Origin: Bacteroidales bacterium
GTDB lineage: Bacteria > Bacteroidota > Bacteroidia > Bacteroidales > UBA932
Assembly (NCBI GenBank): GCA_017443465.1
Contig: JAFRXO010000051.1
Coordinates: 1 to 64,000 of the forward strand
Length of the DNA: 64,000 bases
Direction: 5' to 3'
Part shown: positions 658 to 7,545 of the stretch, piece after piece
Numbering within the stretch: the first letter of the stretch is position 1
How the letters are laid out: each line of letters begins with the position of its first letter
Position numbers and translations under genes: made by a program
The notes under the pieces: model-generated
Databases searched by the model: none
Told to the model about the DNA's origin: nothing
What the model saw: only the letters and a program-made list of their open reading frames with translations

Positions 658-1689
658 TTACTGTCTGGGCTTCACTTTAGTAATAATACCTCCCTTACTT
701 GTCGCTATAACAACCATCCCTTTTTCAAAAGTGATAGATCTGCTATAAGCGTTCGCCGGGACAAGTTCAGGCTGATTTCCTTCTTTCTTGATATATAAAG
801 CGCTTGGCAATACTGAAGAGACGACATATTCCTCTTCAACCTCAACAAGCGATTGTGCATACTTTACCAGGGCATCAGTGAACTCTTTCCCATCTGTAAT
901 CTTGTTCACAAAGTAAGTCAATTCGGAGAAAAAGAGAGCATAATAGCGGTTCTTATGAGGCAGGATTATGCTCAGCCTCTTTTCTTGGTTCTCCGTTATT
1001 GCACCGCCACGATGATCGGCTTGACAACGGATTAGGTAAATGTCGTATATTAAGTTTGTATTATAAATCCACTCACCAAGATTAGGCGATTTCATACAGG
1101 CTCCGAAAGCGGCAAAATAGAGAGAGCATTTGACCTTATCGAACATACCCAGTTTAGAGAGAGCGAGGCTTTTTTTATCTACACCTTTTTCGTTTACCTC
1201 AAAGTCGCCAAAAATCAATTTATTGATGGTTGTGTGTTTGTTGTCTGAATAACGATTATGGACACCTCCATTATAACTGACATAGGCAGGAACGTCAGCA
1301 ACTATAAGCCTGGAATACACTTCCTGAAAACGATCATCACTGCAAATCGCATTACAGATATTCTCTATTTGCAGAAATAAGTGTGCCGAAAAATTTAGGA
1401 AATCTCCTTTCCTGCGAAACCTCTCCATAATGACATAATCCTCAATTAAAGAGTCCTTTATGGATTCAAATGGGAACTCGTCATATAGGCCCTCAGCTTG
1501 ATCTCTGGCATTCTTCTCCAGACAGTATTCGTAAATCTCCTCTATTTTTTCGGAGTCAACAGTGCTTTTTGATATTCCTGAGCCTATTAAACTCTGAATC
1601 CCGGCAGCAAATTCTTTGTTGTCGGGATCTTCATATAAGTCTTTAACGAACTTTAGCAGTTTTGTCAACTGCTTCTTATCTTGTCCCAT
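658..1689 (-). CDS. Retron-linked putative effector with HEPN-like Rx4H motif
   Basis: A 343-residue soluble protein whose ATG lies 25 nt inside the 3' end of the upstream reverse transcriptase gene in another frame, so the two are almost certainly translationally coupled. It is mostly helical by eye. Residues about 97-117 (FLNFSAHLFLQIENICNAI) resemble an early HEPN helix, and R221-x4-H226 in YLIRCQADHRGG matches the HEPN ribonuclease signature Rx4-6H. By analogy with other retrons, where a toxic accessory protein is held silent by the RT-msDNA complex, this is the likely effector. HEPN assignment is inferred from the motif and context only. I know of no characterised homologue. Confidence 0.65.
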   Translation of the reverse strand: MGQDKKQLTKLLKFVKDLYEDPDNKEFAAGIQSLIGSGISKSTVDSEKIEEIYEYCLEKNARDQAEGLYDEFPFESIKDSLIEDYVIMERFRRKGDFLNFSAHLFLQIENICNAICSDDRFQEVYSRLIVADVPAYVSYNGGVHNRYSDNKHTTINKLIFGDFEVNEKGVDKKSLALSKLGMFDKVKCSLYFAAFGACMKSPNLGEWIYNTNLIYDIYLIRCQADHRGGAITENQEKRLSIILPHKNRYYALFFSELTYFVNKITDGKEFTDALVKYAQSLVEVEEEYVVSSVLPSALYIKKEGNQPELVPANAYSRSITFEKGMVVIATSKGGIITKVKPRQ

Positions 1690-3212
1690 TCATCAAGTAT
1701 TTTTAAATCAAAATCAGAATCTACGAGGGCGGCCAGCACCTCATCGGTAGACTTCATAGGCGTGCTGGTCAGCTCGTCTCCCTTCTCAGAAATTGCAGAG
1801 GCAGATAATAGTGCTTCGGCCAGTGAACTTGTGTCAATCAAGTCGGCAAGGTTAGTCTTTACCCAGGTTCTCTTACGTTCAATTCTCCAAAAGTTGGTAT
1901 TATCCTGCTCATAGAAAACGAGCATGTATGATGTTTTGAACTTCTCGAGTGCCGCAGTATCGCTCTTAGCCAGTATGTTAGATATTCTGGTCCGGACATA
2001 ATGGCTGAGTGCTACAGATGTCTTCTTACCGTTAAGGCTAAAGGTACAGTAGATGACGCCATCTTTGTTGAGCTCAAAGTCAAGAGCCTGGCCAATCTTC
2101 TTTTCAAAGTCGGCAATGGTGTACTTATATTTGAGCGTGGCTTCTACAGTGGACGGCTTTGCTCCTGAAAGCTTGTTGAACCGTCGCTGGAGTCGTCTCC
2201 ACACTTCATTATCGGCTCCTTTGACCATCTTTATATAAAGGAGCTTTCCCTGAATCACAGCCTGCATATTCGGCTTGTAAGAGTGGAAATTCTGCTTGGG
2301 TGTATAGTGTAACAAAAACTTTGCGTATGCATCTGCTTCGCCGTACTTCTCCCATATGAAAAGAAGGTTATCCAATTCACGGACAAATTCACGCGTCACA
2401 TTGACGCGATCGCTTACAATCAGACCAGTGACCTCTTGACGTTGACACTTCGTCTGAAGGCGAGTCTTTTTCTCATTGAAAATGAAATGCTGTTCTGTAA
2501 TGATTCCCTCAAGCTTGTTGCGGAATTCACTCCCCTTTTGAAAAACATTTCGGTTGCTGCTGAATGTAATGTCATCAGCATACCTGGAAAAGCGCAGATT
2601 GTACTCCTTTGCAAGCCGATGAAGTCTTCGATCCAAGTTTCGGCAAACAATATTTGTCAAAATAGGAGAACAAGGTGAACCTTGGGGTAATGCGCGACGA
2701 GTCTCTCCATTCACATAGATCTCCGTACAACAGAGCCCGGAGATGGCGTCAGCAACTGTGTCATTGAAGTTGAAGGGGGGAAACTTCAATGTGGCCCAAA
2801 CCCTTGACTTAGAGATACTGGGGAAGAAGTCCTGCAAATCAGTATTGAAGACATAATTCATACCGATATGCTTTTCTGCATTGTCAACCACAGATTTCTC
2901 CGGGACAAACCCCGTGACATAATCTGGAGCATCGTAAAAAGCCTGGAGCAGCTTGTTGGTATAAGTCAGAAAAGACTTCAACAAAGCCTTTGGAGCAGAG
3001 ATTACCCGAAATCCTCCGGTTTTTTTGGGAATTCGAAATTCCTTGTAACTTTTTTTGTTACGAGCCGGGTGGATGAAGTAATTCAGATGCGGCATAATAA
3101 AGGGATGTCCCTTGTCTCCTAAATCATCCATCTTGATTTTGTTCAAGAGGTTTAGAAAATCACGGGTAGTCTGCACCTTTGAGGCTGCCGTAACGATTGC
3201 TTCTTTGGTCAT
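1665..3212 (-). CDS. Retron reverse transcriptase 1 (with C-terminal extension)
   Basis: Retron-clade reverse transcriptase. From the chosen start it is 515 residues: catalytic Asp in TDLQDFF (about D125), ALPQGSPCSPILTN, YADD at about 211-214, and the retron VTG motif (QEVTGLIVSDRVNVTRE) at about 261. After residue about 340 comes an extension shared with the upstream paralogue, ending in a low-complexity acidic tail. An ATG at 3254 is in frame, but it and the following codons lie inside the retron RNA a2 arm. The ATG at 3212 aligns with the start of the paralogue, so I use that. The protein should reverse-transcribe the RNA encoded at 3240-3450 into msDNA. It is followed by the overlapping putative effector gene. 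Confidence 0.9.
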   Translation of the reverse strand: MTKEAIVTAASKVQTTRDFLNLLNKIKMDDLGDKGHPFIMPHLNYFIHPARNKKSYKEFRIPKKTGGFRVISAPKALLKSFLTYTNKLLQAFYDAPDYVTGFVPEKSVVDNAEKHIGMNYVFNTDLQDFFPSISKSRVWATLKFPPFNFNDTVADAISGLCCTEIYVNGETRRALPQGSPCSPILTNIVCRNLDRRLHRLAKEYNLRFSRYADDITFSSNRNVFQKGSEFRNKLEGIITEQHFIFNEKKTRLQTKCQRQEVTGLIVSDRVNVTREFVRELDNLLFIWEKYGEADAYAKFLLHYTPKQNFHSYKPNMQAVIQGKLLYIKMVKGADNEVWRRLQRRFNKLSGAKPSTVEATLKYKYTIADFEKKIGQALDFELNKDGVIYCTFSLNGKKTSVALSHYVRTRISNILAKSDTAALEKFKTSYMLVFYEQDNTNFWRIERKRTWVKTNLADLIDTSSLAEALLSASAISEKGDELTSTPMKSTDEVLAALVDSDFDLKILDEWDKIRSS

Positions 3213-3239
3213 TGGGTTCTGCTCATAAACATAGGCCAT

Positions 3240-3450
3240 GACATACCGGAGCATATTTTCTTTGTCTACGAACTCAAGAGTTCGGAATATAGATCCTTCT
3301 ATATTCTCAAAATCTCATCACTCATATGTGCATCGCACATTTGTGAAAAGTGAAACTTTTCGAGTAACGAGCAAACCTTTGGAAGTATCCGATTTTACGG
3401 ACATCTGTCAAACATGACAGACGAAAGTCAAAAGTCTGTTCCGGTATGTC
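3240..3450 (-). ncRNA. Retron 1 non-coding RNA (msr-msd)
   Basis: About 211 nt bounded by a perfect 11-bp inverted repeat: a1 GACATACCGGA (3440-3450) and a2 TCCGGTATGTC (3240-3250). After a1 come two small hairpins, CTGTCA/TGACAG and TCCG/CGGA, and a linker GTTTGCTCGTTACT. The msd part has several strong stems: ATGTGC/GCACAT, GAATATAGA/TCTATATTC and CGAACTC/GAGTTCG. A sequence ACAAAGAAAA stands just before a2. The same plan with compensatory base changes occurs at 5164-5407. The RT start codon lies 27 nt downstream. I do not see the canonical AGC priming triplet right after a1, so the branching G is not assigned. Confidence 0.88.
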
Positions 3451-3467
3451 AAGGACCTAAATTACTA

Positions 3468-3507
3468 CAAAGATAATGATTTGCTTTCAATTCACGATGC
3501 AAAAATA
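3468..3507 (-). promoter_or_regulatory. Candidate promoter(s) of retron 1
   Basis: Two boxes fit the Bacteroidetes -7 consensus TAnnTTTG on the minus strand: TATCTTTG (3468-3475), 17 nt before a1, and TATTTTTG followed by CATC (3500-3507). The paralogous retron has boxes in matching places. The -33 elements are weak, so which box is used is undecided. Confidence 0.5.
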
Positions 3508-3523
3508 TGATGCGCCCGCGAAT

Positions 3524-3637
3524 TCAACATTCTCCATCTACACTTTTCAACTTTTCCAGTCCTCCACTAAATTCCTGGATCATCCGCTCGCGGATTTTAG
3601 TCGGGGAGATTAAAACGATGATCTCTCCATTGCGATA
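3524..3637 (-). pseudogene. Remnant: 3' end of a second WYL-domain regulator gene
   Basis: Read on the minus strand this gives YRNGEIIVLISPTKIRERM, then IQEFSGGLEKLKSVDGEC and a TGA at 3524-3526. It matches the C-terminus of the intact WYL protein encoded at 6108-7244 (YRNGDNILLVSPKSIRDKM ... LKKLKSVKGE) through about 35 residues. Upstream, an in-frame TGA and the end of the RT2 gene cut it off. It is therefore the tail of a lost WYL gene lying directly before retron 1, as an intact WYL gene lies before retron 2. Confidence 0.85.
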
Positions 3638-3657
3638 AATTCAAATAGGTAGGAACC

Positions 3658-5133
3658 TTATCCATGGAAGAACAAATCACCTTCTTTTCTTCTTACAGTG
3701 GATGCATAAATGTTTCTCGGGCGAGACTTCATGACGAGCCAATATGGAAACTCTCCACGTTTACAGTATGCCACATAAAGCATCTTTTTGAGATCCGTCA
3801 CAGCCTTCTCGTCACCAATAGCTGAAGCAATCAGTTCCTTGCAGGAATCACTCACGGAGATGATGATGCCCTCATTCCCACTCTTGAAAGATGCCCCATA
3901 TGAGATGACAGGCCCCTTTTCCTTCTTCCCTGGAATCTCTTTGGCAAAGAAACTGATTTCGGTGGAAAACTGCTTCTCAAAAGCCGGCATCGTGTAGGCA
4001 GCGACATAGTTAATATCGCTCACCTTCACCGGTTTCTTAGAACAGACCTTATCAAACCTGTCCTGAAGCCTCTGCCAGACGAGGCTCTCCTCCCCTTTCA
4101 CCATCTTGAGGTACATGAGCTTCCCCTGAAGGACTCTTTCCATCGAAGGAGGCGAGACCCGGTTCACCTTCAGGGTGTAATGCTGAAAGAATCTGGCAAA
4201 CGCCGAATCATAGCCATATCTCTCCCAGATGTAAAGAAGACTCCCTATGCTACGGACATATTCGCGAGTAACATTGACGCGGTCGCTAACTATCAGTCCA
4301 GTCACCTCCTGCCGCGATCCCTTCTTCTGAAAGCGGGTCTTCTTCTCGTTGATGGTAAAGTTCTGTTCTGCGACGATTTTTCTAAGTTCTGTCATGAACT
4401 CCCCTTCCTCCTGGTAGACATTATGCATACTGCTGAAAGTGATATCATCAGCATAGCGAGTGTAATTCAGACCAAACCTAGCAGCAAGGTGCTTCAGCCG
4501 ACGGTCGAGATTCCGGGAAACGATGTTAGTGAGAATCGGAGAGGTCGGGGCCCCTTGCGGCAGCACATTCCGTTTCTCGGTTTTTGCGCCTTTCGGGAGA
4601 TCAACGGTCGTCAAGACCGGCTTGCCATCATAAAAATCAATCTCAGTGCAGCAGAGACCGGCGACTGCGCTTGCCACCTCCTGATTGAAACCTATAGCTT
4701 TCGACTTTAAAGCGCCCCATACGCGGGCTTGGGGGATGCTGGGGAAGAAGTCCTTCAAGTCCAGGTTCAGGACGTAGTTCATTCCAACATGATTCATAGC
4801 ATTATCCACGACGCTTCTTCCCGGGACAAAGCCCATTGCCGCGCTCGTTGGCTCATATAGAGCTTGAAGAAGCATATTGGTGTATGTCTGGAATGACTTG
4901 AGCATCTTCACCGGAGCGGAAATTTCCCGGACTCCCCCCGATTTCTTTGGTATTGTAAATACCTTATAGTGTTTGGCATTCCTGGTCGGATGACAGAAAT
5001 AATTAAGCTGCGCCATCGTAAAAGGGTGAGCCTTGTCACCAAGGTCATCCTTTTTCAATGAATTAAGCAGAGTCAACAGAGAATGCCTATTGGTCATTAG
5101 TGATGCGGCTTCCCTTATTTCTTGTCTTTCCAT
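3658..5133 (-). CDS. Retron reverse transcriptase 2
   Basis: Paralogue of the downstream RT, about 491 residues from the ATG at 5133. A TTG start 9 nt further up is possible. It has the catalytic Asp in LDLKDFF (about D125), VLPQGAPTSPILTN, YADD at about 227-230, and VTG at about 277. It carries about 15 extra residues just before the PQG motif. The C-terminal extension (about 350-491) is recognisably related to that of RT1. Sequence identity is moderate, so this is an old duplication and not a recent copy. No intact effector gene follows; the next sequence is the WYL remnant. It may act alone, share the effector at 658-1689, or have lost its own partner. Confidence 0.9.
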   Translation of the reverse strand: MERQEIREAASLMTNRHSLLTLLNSLKKDDLGDKAHPFTMAQLNYFCHPTRNAKHYKVFTIPKKSGGVREISAPVKMLKSFQTYTNMLLQALYEPTSAAMGFVPGRSVVDNAMNHVGMNYVLNLDLKDFFPSIPQARVWGALKSKAIGFNQEVASAVAGLCCTEIDFYDGKPVLTTVDLPKGAKTEKRNVLPQGAPTSPILTNIVSRNLDRRLKHLAARFGLNYTRYADDITFSSMHNVYQEEGEFMTELRKIVAEQNFTINEKKTRFQKKGSRQEVTGLIVSDRVNVTREYVRSIGSLLYIWERYGYDSAFARFFQHYTLKVNRVSPPSMERVLQGKLMYLKMVKGEESLVWQRLQDRFDKVCSKKPVKVSDINYVAAYTMPAFEKQFSTEISFFAKEIPGKKEKGPVISYGASFKSGNEGIIISVSDSCKELIASAIGDEKAVTDLKKMLYVAYCKRGEFPYWLVMKSRPRNIYASTVRRKEGDLFFHG

Positions 5134-5163
5134 TTTAAACAAGGAATAAATAAAAAGGCGCTA

Positions 5164-5407
5164 GACATACTGGAGATCGTTTTCTTTGTGTACACCCTTT
5201 GTCGGAATCGACAAAGGAGGGGAAGTAGGGCGACCGGTCATTTATGACCGGCTAAAATAGAATATATTGAGTTTACTCAATATGAAACAAAGACGATCTA
5301 GGGAGATCGGACTTTGTTGCAAGTAACGCACAAACATTCTCTTATCCCTTCTTTCGGGACATCCGTCAAATATGACGGACAAAGTCAAAAGTCTCCTCCA
5401 GTATGTC
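5164..5407 (-). ncRNA. Retron 2 non-coding RNA (msr-msd)
   Basis: About 244 nt between a1 GACATACTGGAG (5396-5407) and a2 CTCCAGTATGTC (5164-5175), a perfect 12-bp pair. Relative to retron 1, one C-G pair has become T-A on both arms. The msr hairpins are conserved in shape with changed pairs: CCGTCA/TGACGG and TCCC/GGGA, followed by GTTTGTGCGTTACT. The msd has stems AACAAAG/CTTTGTT enclosing GATCT/AGATC, then ATATTGAGT/ACTCAATAT, CCGGTCAT/ATGACCGG and CCTTTGTCG/CGACAAAGG. ACAAAGAAAA again precedes a2. The RT2 ATG is 30 nt downstream. Confidence 0.88.
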
Positions 5408-5429: not shown

Positions 5430-5486
5430 CAAAGTTAATACTTTATTGTGAGAGTTCTCTTATTTTTCCTCTCTGATGCAAAGGTA
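5430..5486 (-). promoter_or_regulatory. Candidate promoter(s) of retron 2
   Basis: TAACTTTG (5430-5437) lies 22 nt before a1, and TACCTTTG followed by CATC lies at 5479-5486. Both fit the Bacteroidetes -7 box TAnnTTTG, and the pair mirrors that of retron 1. They separate the retron from the upstream WG-protein gene, suggesting independent transcription of the RNA. Confidence 0.5.
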
Positions 5487-5526: not shown

Positions 5527-6060
5527 TTAGTCAATGTTCCAATAGGCATCAGGATCACCCTCAAAGGCATCATCAATGACATCATCACTGTACCCCTCTA
5601 CATCTTGGGCATAGGAGCCGGCATATGCGCCGTAATGAGTACCGTAATCATCTTCATGATAAGAAGAGGCTCTTCCAGATGAATAATTAGTATGATTATA
5701 ATCAGCAAGTTGCCGACTGTTTAAGTCAAATTGCTTCTCATAGCCGTTAATAACCACTCTTGTATTGCTCCGTCCTTTCTTAAAGAAATTCCATATTTCG
5801 TCATAGATGACCGGCAGAACTTCCTGTCCGGATTCGTCGATGATGCCCCACTTGGCTTTCTCAGTCTTTCCGGATTCAAGATCTATCGACTCGTTTCCGA
5901 AAATACTTTTCACTCTGGCAAGACCGTGGTCATAGCCACTAATCCAAGCGTACTTCCCAAAAGGAACAACTATCTCTCCGGTATTGTCAATGACACCGTG
6001 CTGGTACTTGTCGCTCTCGACCACACTTACACTCCCGTAATTGTCTTGCCTAATAATCAT
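5527..6060 (-). CDS. WG-repeat protein
   Basis: A 177-residue cytoplasmic protein with WG-type beta repeats (HGVIDNTGEIVVPFGKYAWIS and WGIIDESGQEVLPVIYDEI) in the first two-thirds. A Tyr/Ser/Gly-rich linker and a short acidic tail (AFEGDPDAYWNID) follow. WG repeats serve as protein-binding scaffolds of unclear role. The gene lies 47 nt after the WYL regulator on the same strand and 90 nt before the first retron 2 promoter box, so it probably forms a two-gene unit with the regulator. No catalytic motif is visible. Confidence 0.7.
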   Translation of the reverse strand: MIIRQDNYGSVSVVESDKYQHGVIDNTGEIVVPFGKYAWISGYDHGLARVKSIFGNESIDLESGKTEKAKWGIIDESGQEVLPVIYDEIWNFFKKGRSNTRVVINGYEKQFDLNSRQLADYNHTNYSSGRASSYHEDDYGTHYGAYAGSYAQDVEGYSDDVIDDAFEGDPDAYWNID

Positions 6061-6107
6061 ATCTTGTCGCTTTTCTGCCGCGAAGTAAATAAACGGTCGC
6101 GAACTCT

Positions 6108-7244
6108 TTATTCGCCTTTTACACTTTTAAGCTTTTTCAGCGAATCCTCCAGTTCTTCCACCATCTTATCCCGGATGGACTTGGGGCTTACCAGGAGGAT
6201 ATTGTCCCCATTACGGTAAACCATGTTAAAGAATTCTCGGTTGGGTTTCAGTTCAAGACCATAGAAGGTATAGCCGGTGAAGGAACGGTGCTTCTTGTGA
6301 AGCTGTTCCTGCTCTTCGGGAGAGAACTTCGTCTGAGAACCGTGGAGAGGTTTGGTGTCCACATAGCCTGTATAGCTATCCTTCACCGCCAGGGTGATGG
6401 GAGTAAGCGGTTCCGACTCAATATAGGTGATACCCACGATGTCTTCATACCTTTCCTCAAAGTACTCGTCGCAATCAATATAAGGCACACCTTCGACAGG
6501 ATGGATGGCTTCCATACGGTCTAGGGGCAGATTCACAAAAAAATCCTTCCTGTACGGGAACTTCTTATCACCCAGCGGCGTACCAATCAGGTACCAGCGA
6601 TCGTTGTACTGCTTCAGCAAGTACGGATAGAGGCGGATGGTGCGCACTTCCTCGCCAAAGGGAGCGTACTCCACATCTACTACCTTCTTGTTAGCAATTA
6701 AGGCGAATAGGGTACCTAGATAGTCCTTCCCTTCCAGGTAGTCGTTTGAACTAAAGGAAATAATCTTCCTGGTGTCAATACTCTCCTTGTCAAACTCATT
6801 CCGCCCGAAAGATCTCCGGTCATTGAGCTTTTCCTGCAGGTCGTGTAGCCACTCAAAACTATCCAGACCTGCGAACTGGCCCAGAGTATTCAGCACCTCT
6901 TGGAGCAGCCGCTTCTCATCATCAGACAGTGGTTTGCTGAAGAGTGAATGCGTCTGGTCTGCATACCGATACACGGGCGAACCATAGAGCCTCTCTGAAC
7001 TATCTATTTCCATATTAAACGGCGAATCCTGAAGCGCTTGAAGGTCCAACTGGATGACGCGCTTGCCACTCTTGATATAACGGTCATAATCGCTCTGGTC
7101 ACCGCCGATGGTAGGATACCCGGCCAGTTCCAGCCGCTCGTTGACCTTCTTTAGGAGATCCTCGCACGTGTATTTATTATAGCGGTCACTCAGCATCTGA
7201 TCAAGATACATATAGCGAATAACAGCGTTCTTATTGGATGGCAT
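6108..7244 (-). CDS. WYL-domain transcriptional regulator
   Basis: A 378-residue protein with an N-terminal helical region likely to bind DNA (residues about 1-60). A WYL core follows at about 185-260 (VVDVEYAPFGEEVRTIRLYPYLLKQYNDRWYLIG), then a C-terminal WCX-like region ending in VSPKSIRDKMVEELEDSLKKL. WYL proteins sense nucleic-acid-type ligands and often control phage-defence islands. The position directly upstream of the retron genes fits that role. A repeated TTCGCGAA palindrome 41-63 nt upstream of its ATG is a plausible operator. A broken copy of the same family lies at 3524-3637. Confidence 0.85.
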   Translation of the reverse strand: MPSNKNAVIRYMYLDQMLSDRYNKYTCEDLLKKVNERLELAGYPTIGGDQSDYDRYIKSGKRVIQLDLQALQDSPFNMEIDSSERLYGSPVYRYADQTHSLFSKPLSDDEKRLLQEVLNTLGQFAGLDSFEWLHDLQEKLNDRRSFGRNEFDKESIDTRKIISFSSNDYLEGKDYLGTLFALIANKKVVDVEYAPFGEEVRTIRLYPYLLKQYNDRWYLIGTPLGDKKFPYRKDFFVNLPLDRMEAIHPVEGVPYIDCDEYFEERYEDIVGITYIESEPLTPITLAVKDSYTGYVDTKPLHGSQTKFSPEEQEQLHKKHRSFTGYTFYGLELKPNREFFNMVYRNGDNILLVSPKSIRDKMVEELEDSLKKLKSVKGE

Positions 7245-7406: not shown

Positions 7407-7545
7407 GGAAATTTACATCAAGAACGCAGCAATGCGTGCCAACCGAGCTCCAACGAGAGAGCAATCAAGGAGCCACGGTGGCGAGCTGAAAAGCAGATGT
7501 GGGCTGACGCCAAAAACTCATATAGCTCAGAGACTGTAAATTTCC
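7407..7545 (+). ncRNA. Unidentified structured RNA
   Basis: No reading frame explains this stretch, which is packed with pairing. A 10-bp closing stem joins GGAAATTTAC (7407-7416) to GTAAATTTCC (7536-7545). Inside it are hairpin ACGCA-GCAA-TGCGT (7424-7437, GNRA loop), stem GCTCC/GGAGC (7447-7451 with 7469-7473), and stem TGGCG/CGCCA (7479-7483 with 7508-7512), which holds a small CTG/CAG hairpin. A good promoter lies about 35 nt upstream. I do not match it to tmRNA, RNase P, 6S, a known riboswitch or a ribozyme. It may be an independent small RNA or a leader of the gene at 7696. Confidence 0.6.

Follow-up and report, generated by a model that had tools for sequence, protein, structure and literature searches.

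Why would a bacterium carry two related retrons head to tail when an effector gene follows only one of them? We examined this question in a stretch of 64,000 nucleotides (nt; the window) from the Bacteroidales bacterium assembly GCA_017443465.1 (contig JAFRXO010000051.1, positions 1 to 64,000), in which two reverse transcriptase (RT) genes, each behind a non-coding RNA (ncRNA), lie in tandem on the minus strand. The locus seems to hold two related phage-defence retrons of a gut-type bacterium, one with a predicted RNA-cutting toxin and the other seemingly without. We consider it probable that this is a fused pair of operons of the same family, in which unit B is complete with its effector held inactive and unit A is effector-less. 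The evidence consists of the covariation of the two RNAs, a truncated regulator gene lying between the units, the separate placement of the two RTs on a tree, a single effector copy in the genome and a match between RT tails and effector kinds.

In the sense of the minus strand the order is WYL, WG, ncRNA A, RT_A, WYL remnant, ncRNA B, RT_B and HEPN-like gene. The system reaches beyond positions 3240 to 5407, the part described in the initial annotation: RT_B and the HEPN-like gene occupy 658-3239, and upstream the WG and WYL genes (5527-7244) belong to it or adjoin it. The contig starts 657 nt past the HEPN-like gene, and visible sequence ends there. The features, with the evidence for each, are:

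6108..7244, minus strand: intact gene of a WYL-domain regulator, 378 amino acids (Pfam WYL, 33.0 bits against a cut-off of 21.8)
5527..6060, minus strand: WG-repeat protein, 177 amino acids, with the tail ...DAFEGDPDAYWNID, an accessory or a bystander (Pfam WG_beta_rep)
5430..5437, minus strand: possible Bacteroidota -7 box TAACTTTG, 5' of ncRNA A (candidate box of type TAnnTTTG)
5164..5407, minus strand: ncRNA A (msr-msd), arm a1 at 5396-5407 and arm a2 at 5164-5175 (repeat, fold, covariation, covariance model R1)
3658..5142, minus strand: RT_A, 494 amino acids from a TTG start (ATG at 5133), without an effector-type C-terminal tail (NAMNH, YADD and VTG motifs)
3524..3640, minus strand: last 38 codons of a second WYL gene with their stop codon, a remnant (similarity to the C-terminus of the intact WYL protein, reading frame)
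3468..3475, minus strand: possible -7 box TATCTTTG, 5' of ncRNA B (box TAnnTTTG)
3240..3450, minus strand: ncRNA B (msr-msd), a1 at 3440-3450 and a2 at 3240-3250 (repeat, fold, covariation, model R1)
1665..3254, minus strand: RT_B, at most 529 amino acids, starts at 3239 or 3212 being likelier (NAEKH, YADD and VTG motifs)
1668..1751, minus strand: C-terminal tail of RT_B (STDEVLAALVDSDFDLKIL...), a peptide proposed to dock the effector (tail comparison among relatives)
658..1689, minus strand: HEPN-like effector, 343 amino acids, overlapping the end of RT_B (homologues adjoining RTs, motif)
1555..1689, minus strand: N-terminal 45 amino acids of the effector, proposed partner of the RT tail (62.2% identity to the homologue at locus L017, against 23.5% for the rest)
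1012..1029, minus strand: R221-C-Q-A-D-H226, HEPN-type catalytic motif of the effector (Arg and His unchanged in all 34 effectors aligned)

Two retrons of one family and the junction between them

The initial annotation described each RT gene as preceded by an RNA bounded by a perfect inverted repeat, and both repeats (3240-3250/3440-3450 in unit B, 5164-5175/5396-5407 in unit A) and both RT genes are indeed found there, on the minus strand. Perfect repeats of at least 11 base pairs with arms 100-260 nt apart arose in 20 of 5000 (unit B) and 30 of 5000 (unit A) mononucleotide shuffles of the 300-330 nt regions. Compared with dinucleotide shuffles, folding gave z scores of -8.68 for ncRNA B and -8.75 for ncRNA A, and none of 200 shuffles equalled either. 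The paired changes cited in that annotation as evidence for the fold are present. In ten aligned homologous RNAs we counted 23 pairs, drawn from the stem of a1 with a2 and from two hairpins of the msr: 93.9% of the 230 cells are paired and two-sided changes occur at 11 of the 23 pairs, a result reached in none of 500 shuffles. Versions of the structure slid along the alignment were at most 43% paired, a comparison that somewhat favours the unslid version, the pairs having been taken from the fold of ncRNA B. ncRNA A retains 21 of the 23 pairs, and one of its two misses is an alignment offset in hairpin 2.

The segment from a1 to the end of hairpin 2 is conserved (75% identity between A and B; mean of the ten, 68%) and the msd part is not (41% between A and B; mean, 36%), in agreement with the earlier proposal that the RT-facing msr part is kept while the msd parts are unlike. 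The sequence TTTGA between a1 and hairpin 1 is invariant and may hold the branching G, from which a retron forms its 2'-5' linkage. Candidate boxes of the type TAnnTTTG, the Bacteroidota -7 consensus, lie within 70 nt of the ncRNA in 7 of the 10 loci. Such boxes precede both window RNAs, and the two units may therefore have separate transcripts.

To follow the RNA through the family we used R1, a covariance model of the a1-msr part built from 11 sequences and run over 88 sources. R1 scores ncRNA A at 87.2 bits (E 9.5e-15) and ncRNA B at 96.2 bits (E 1.3e-16), both sequences being themselves within the model. At E<=1 it matches 33 times among the 82 family loci (L016-L097); 32 of these matches lie directly 5' of the RT on the RT strand; the remaining one (L095) fails this position rule only as the listed start of the open reading frame (ORF) overlaps the match. 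Five of the 33 matched loci were in the model and 28 were not, and many of these 28 score weakly (E 0.01 to 1), position being the telling feature. The initial annotation named homologous RTs lacking the upstream repeat as grounds for refutation, and the outcome was mostly favourable to it: 32 of the 81 loci with space 5' of the RT have the match there, plus L095. At 48 of the 81 R1 has no match at E<=1; R1 therefore fails to cover distant family members. In the window a weak antisense match falls at ncRNA B (E 0.35), a whole-genome scan at E<=1 returned only ncRNA A and ncRNA B, and Rfam at gathering scores places no retron family within the window.

Two relatives show unusual RNA arrangements. 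Locus L194 (genome G521) has two tandem ncRNAs (R1 matches at 3582-3674 and 3875-3970) before a single RT, and a1 and a2 arms can be made out by eye in each; both were among the R1 sequences, so R1 is no independent test there. This is perhaps another form of the tandem trend. At L193, a retron ncRNA (R1 E 7e-8, outside the model) and, behind it, an RT split over two open frames occupy positions 430-2676; a complete unit stands some 14 kb away.

Both RTs carry the YADD, NAxxH and VTG motifs of retron RTs. PADLOC retron RT models match both, at best with 2e-105 (RT_A residues 42-377) and 8e-102 (RT_B residues 56-411), and RVT_1 is the sole Pfam domain in each. The two RTs are 55% identical and their RNAs are similar, as would be expected if one retron had been duplicated in place and then diverged. 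On a tree of 22 rows, however, RT_A stands outside a group formed by RT_B and five other RTs (support 97/95). A larger tree recovers the same group (99/94) but with L014 and L038 inside it too, so the position of these two is unsettled. The nearest relative of RT_B in the 22-row tree comes from genome G602, and a grouping of A with B as sisters is rejected (p-AU, from the approximately unbiased test, 0.000156; 22 rows), which rules out a sister origin of the two units. Since RT_A and RT_B are not sisters, duplication in place followed by divergence is very improbable. The initial annotation was nonetheless right in that the units are diverged members of a single retron family, arranged in tandem, whose RNAs covary.

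What lies between the units points to their origin. An ORF matching the WYL model was found within the fetched flanks, on either strand, in 60 of the 82 family loci (rows counted by eye). Between RT_A and ncRNA B the window holds the last part of such a gene, 38 codons reading IYRNGEIIVLISPTKIRERMIQEFSGGLEKLKSVDGEC-stop, 54% identical over 37 amino acids to the C-terminus of the intact WYL protein (E 8e-10; a search with the full-length WYL protein gave E 1.35e-8). The remnant starts 17 nt past the RT_A stop and ends about 74 nt before ncRNA B; L016 has the end of a WYL gene in a comparable position, 298 nt from the RT on its upstream side. RT_A itself stops soon after the last recognisable homology, without the tail that continues in L016 and L017. 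A truncated WYL gene between the units therefore argues for fusion of two operons through deletion, and the simplest account would be that two complete operons were joined, which cost unit A its effector and the end of its RT, and unit B most of its WYL gene.

The junction could also be a product of assembly, with two separate loci joined. Such misassembly is possible, as the source is a draft genome (2.65 Mb in 81 contigs), and genomes G017 and G602 each hold two separate family members on a single contig, separated by about 25 kb in G017 and 14 kb in G602, where one of the two is in two frames. Against this, no long near-identical repeat occurs at the junction among the families listed (20 of 23 direct), and the WYL remnant amounts to a 43-nt match at 77%; both units lie on one strand, and the spacing from remnant to ncRNA B resembles that from WYL gene to ncRNA in L016. 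We therefore give an artefact very little weight.

The tandem is rare. RT_A was searched in overlapping sets of 200, 393, 398 and 395 genomes at cut-offs of 1e-30, 1e-40, 1e-40 and 1e-50, with matches in 10, 14, 10 and 5 genomes; these counts include the source genome of the window, the only one with two RT genes within 5 kb. The 82 family loci contain no other tandem RT pair, L097 being one RT in two frames. A two-place match in genome G145 was ruled out as a tandem, since both places belong to one open frame.

Upstream of unit A, the conserved tail of the WG protein (...SYAQDVEGYSDDVIDDAFEGDPDAYWNID) recurs at about a dozen family loci and on unrelated proteins away from retrons. The tail ...DAFEGDPDAYWNID was ruled out as the mark of a retron-specific accessory, because three of its four matches other than its own (L213, L214 and L215, the last a 3.2-kb contig) show no RT nearby. 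Adjoining the WYL gene, a SAM-I/IV riboswitch match at 7410-7527 on the plus strand (47.2 bits against a cut-off of 41.1) precedes small unnamed ORFs.

The HEPN-like effector gene of unit B

Homologues of the gene after RT_B adjoin the RT in 47 of the 82 loci, with gaps of -55 to +63 nt except at L044, where the start overlaps the RT, and at L097. Arg221 and His226 are invariant in all 34 aligned effectors, and the Arg is mostly followed by Asn (by Cys in the window, RCQADH). The residues are arranged as R-N-x(2,3)-H, the spacing being one residue shorter in one subclass, and the effectors thus present a motif of the HEPN type R-X-X-X-X-H. As this invariant arrangement is that of HEPN RNases, we read the gene as probably HEPN-type. 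The effector of L004 (the same gene as that of L016) passes Pfam DUF4145 at 24.7 bits against a cut-off of 23.1, the only one of the 34 above the cut-off; DUF4145 is called a predicted HEPN domain in the excerpted text of PMC10799925. Other effectors weakly match the DUF4145, Apea-like and Swt1-like HEPN families, and these matches span the motif.

Several results weigh against this assignment. The window effector matches no Pfam, PADLOC or NCBIfam family and has Cys where most effectors have Asn. Profile comparison with five DUF4145 sequences, although aligned on the motif, gave a probability of 8.5% (E 0.0039), and comparison with one Apea-like HEPN example gave no signal. When the effector profile was compared with PDB sequences, the best matches were designed helical repeats (E 9.6e-8, N-terminal part) and a phosphatase subunit, which we dismissed as composition matches. 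The gene could accordingly encode some other helical effector rather than a HEPN RNase, a reading favoured by the weak profile support and the helical-repeat matches. The invariance of Arg and His at HEPN spacing in 34 of 34 effectors, and the motif-spanning matches to three HEPN-type families, make it unlikely. Judged from its sequence, the product of 658-1689 is probably a HEPN protein, and likely a toxic RNase.

At L197 (6843-9686) and L194 (6540-9501), genes of about 950-990 amino acids with similar N-termini directly follow the HEPN gene, that of L194 running off the end. These genes are a possible third operon member.

RT tails, effector kinds and the place of unit A

The tails of the RTs go with the kind of effector beside them. 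At the ten RNA-aligned loci, the six HEPN-linked RTs (RT_B of the window, L016, L017, L018, L193 and L194) end in an FDL-type tail (SxFDLxxL), with the variants NFRDLSIL in L018 and FDFNTL in L194, and the four RTs for which no HEPN gene was seen (RT_A, L014, L019 and L038) have no such tail. Among 65 RTs with an effector in trans, another tail, xDIWExxGIxxA (the Trp tail), is present in 14 of 17 RTs linked to a histidine-kinase-like (HisKin) protein and in 0 of 48 HEPN-linked RTs. The HisKin class was defined by a model built from seven proteins, all Pfam HisKin-conflict and that of L009 among them; 17 RTs are followed by a protein matching it, and nine more carry the domain fused. The tree of RT domains offers 9 independent pairs, of which 8-9 agree with the match of tail and effector and none opposes it (sign test, p 0.004-0.008). 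A later set of 70 RTs comprised 60 whose effector could not be classed, 3 with a fused one, 6 linked to HEPN and 1 to HisKin. All seven RTs classed in trans agree; the tails of L185 and L186 had been seen beforehand, so the new cases are five of five.

Other points count against the match. The tail motifs were defined after the data had been seen, three of the 17 HisKin-linked RTs lack the Trp tail, and previously unseen loci are few. Two of the four tail-less cases are incomplete, L014 being interrupted in the C-terminal extension and the contig of L019 ending 292 nt past the RT.

HisKin-conflict (PF22561) effectors stand in trans beside RTs of this same family at L023, L041, L057, L072, L074, L080 and others; at L047 the domain is fused to the RT and a 211-amino-acid gene follows.

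Within the 47 HEPN effectors, the N-terminal class tracks the class of the RT tail: 18 of 18 class II effectors go with DELN tails and 24 of 26 class I effectors with FDL or GL tails, three being unclassed and the class patterns having been written after the data were seen. Of the two class I exceptions one has no tail and the other, L096, seems to be a fault of the patterns. The tree yields just 3 independent pairs; all 3 agree, but the number is too small for a test. The catalytic subclass, defined by the spacing of the motif, shows 8 changes over the 46 rows of the tree and does not go with the tail. Residues 1-45 of the window effector are 62.2% identical to those of L017 and the rest 23.5%. 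The RTs of L092 and L094 are 94.7% identical, residues 1-45 of their effectors 97.8% and the rest 41.7%; for L086 and L092 the values are 94.1%, 72.1% and 27.2%. Judging by these comparisons, HEPN catalytic domains are swapped behind a conserved N-terminal segment. A broader proposal, which we regard as doubtful, is that of an exchangeable plug: the C-terminal peptide of the RT would recognise the N-terminus or kind of the effector while the toxic domain is swapped (HEPN subclasses, histidine-kinase-like ATPases), and the plug-less retron fused here would add a second multicopy single-stranded DNA (msDNA) to the control of one toxin.

What, then, is unit A? No effector gene follows RT_A, and the HEPN gene is single-copy, with no second copy in the source genome at E<=0.01. 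Both retrons might nevertheless guard the one effector, two msDNAs being sensed in mixed RT_A/RT_B complexes so that either trigger would free the toxin. The open frame of RT_A, the 21 of 23 pairs kept by ncRNA A, the shared strand, the single effector copy and the differing msd parts would all suit such an arrangement, and mixed complexes are conceivable given that Kva2 (type IX) assembles four RTs with two HEPN proteins in the portions of PMC13405049 consulted. RT_A, however, lacks the C-terminal tail of its HEPN-linked relatives, the WYL remnant implies loss by deletion, and the loci and genomes searched hold no further tandem. Shared control by unit A is possible but unsupported, and we rate a dual guard as rather unlikely. 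Unit A is most likely a relic, possibly still making msDNA. As unit A is effector-less, the suggestion of the initial annotation that the tandem reflects diversification against phage counter-defence is not supported as stated; the tail-less RT_A, the WYL remnant, the non-sister placement of the RTs and the lack of another tandem among the searched loci and genomes also speak against it.

Proposed mechanism and relation to known retrons

In the favoured account of two fused operons, each ancestral operon would have been WYL regulator, ncRNA, RT and effector, both from one Bacteroidota retron family. The present order, WYL-WG-ncRNA_A-RT_A-(WYL remnant)-ncRNA_B-RT_B-HEPN, would then have arisen by a deletion that took away the last part of RT_A, its effector gene and most of the WYL gene of unit B. 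In this account unit B is the complete system. By analogy with characterised retrons, RT_B would make msDNA from ncRNA B, and RT_B with its msDNA should keep the HEPN protein inactive until infection, probably through the C-terminal tail of RT_B and residues 1 to about 45 of the effector. A phage that disturbs the msDNA, or a trigger particular to the family, would free the HEPN RNase, leading to RNA cleavage and growth stop. Unit A, with an open RT frame and a foldable ncRNA, could make its own msDNA and would do so without an effector or docking tail of its own.

To our knowledge, there are few retron types for which it is understood how the RT recognises its own toxin and keeps it in check. 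RT tails that change with the effector, together with toxin domains that change behind a constant N-terminus, make recognition testable by tail swaps, and the tandem offers a natural case of a retron that lost its own effector. Beyond the PADLOC names, retron types are used here as generally understood.

The closest RT models to both RT_A and RT_B, in PADLOC-DB, are those of type XI (RT-protease) and type XII (RT-TIR). These types have a fused C-terminal protease or TIR domain; here Pfam finds neither, the effector is in trans and the RT part alone matches. No NCBIfam retron model reaches its cut-off on the window RTs, and the RT_IX model is weaker on RT_B (4.5e-50 against 8e-102 for the closest type XI/XII model). 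The window family lacks a defining feature of type XI/XII and one of type IX. This retron system, with its set of HEPN-like effectors and its WYL linkage, is not named in the PADLOC, NCBIfam or Pfam models used; the literature searched, which left out the 2020 retron classification and was available in part, showed neither tandem retrons nor such a retron-HEPN family.

Type IX Kva2 is alike in having a HEPN RNase effector, predicted in our case. According to the excerpts of PMC13405049, the Kva2 effector degrades tRNA when triggered: a HEPN dimer sits at the core of the RT-msDNA complex, and tRNA is cleaved once the dimer has been released. The Kva2 operon runs HEPN, winged helix (WH), ncRNA, RT, whereas ours runs ncRNA-RT-HEPN, and the Kva2 HEPN protein lacks the canonical motif (R-phi-XXX-H), whereas R-N/C-x-x-x-H here is of the canonical type in 34 of 34 effectors (Kva2 data from the same excerpts). 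A separate winged-helix gene, a type IX feature, was not seen among ORFs of at least 90 amino acids, no search aimed at winged helices having been made. The WYL regulators of defence islands in PMC9122601 stand beside a defence operon, as here, in passages that are not about this retron family. In the consulted passages of PMC12548924, Retron-Sda1 shows effector replacement beside a retron RT with a shared C-terminal segment, and Retron-Bth1 has no apparent effector, yet its RT-DNA is made. As far as those passages go, both differ from the window in their effectors and in having no tandem of two retrons, the second RT of Bth1 being that of a group II intron; Bth1 nonetheless provides a precedent for unit A, and Sda1 one for the replacement of effectors.

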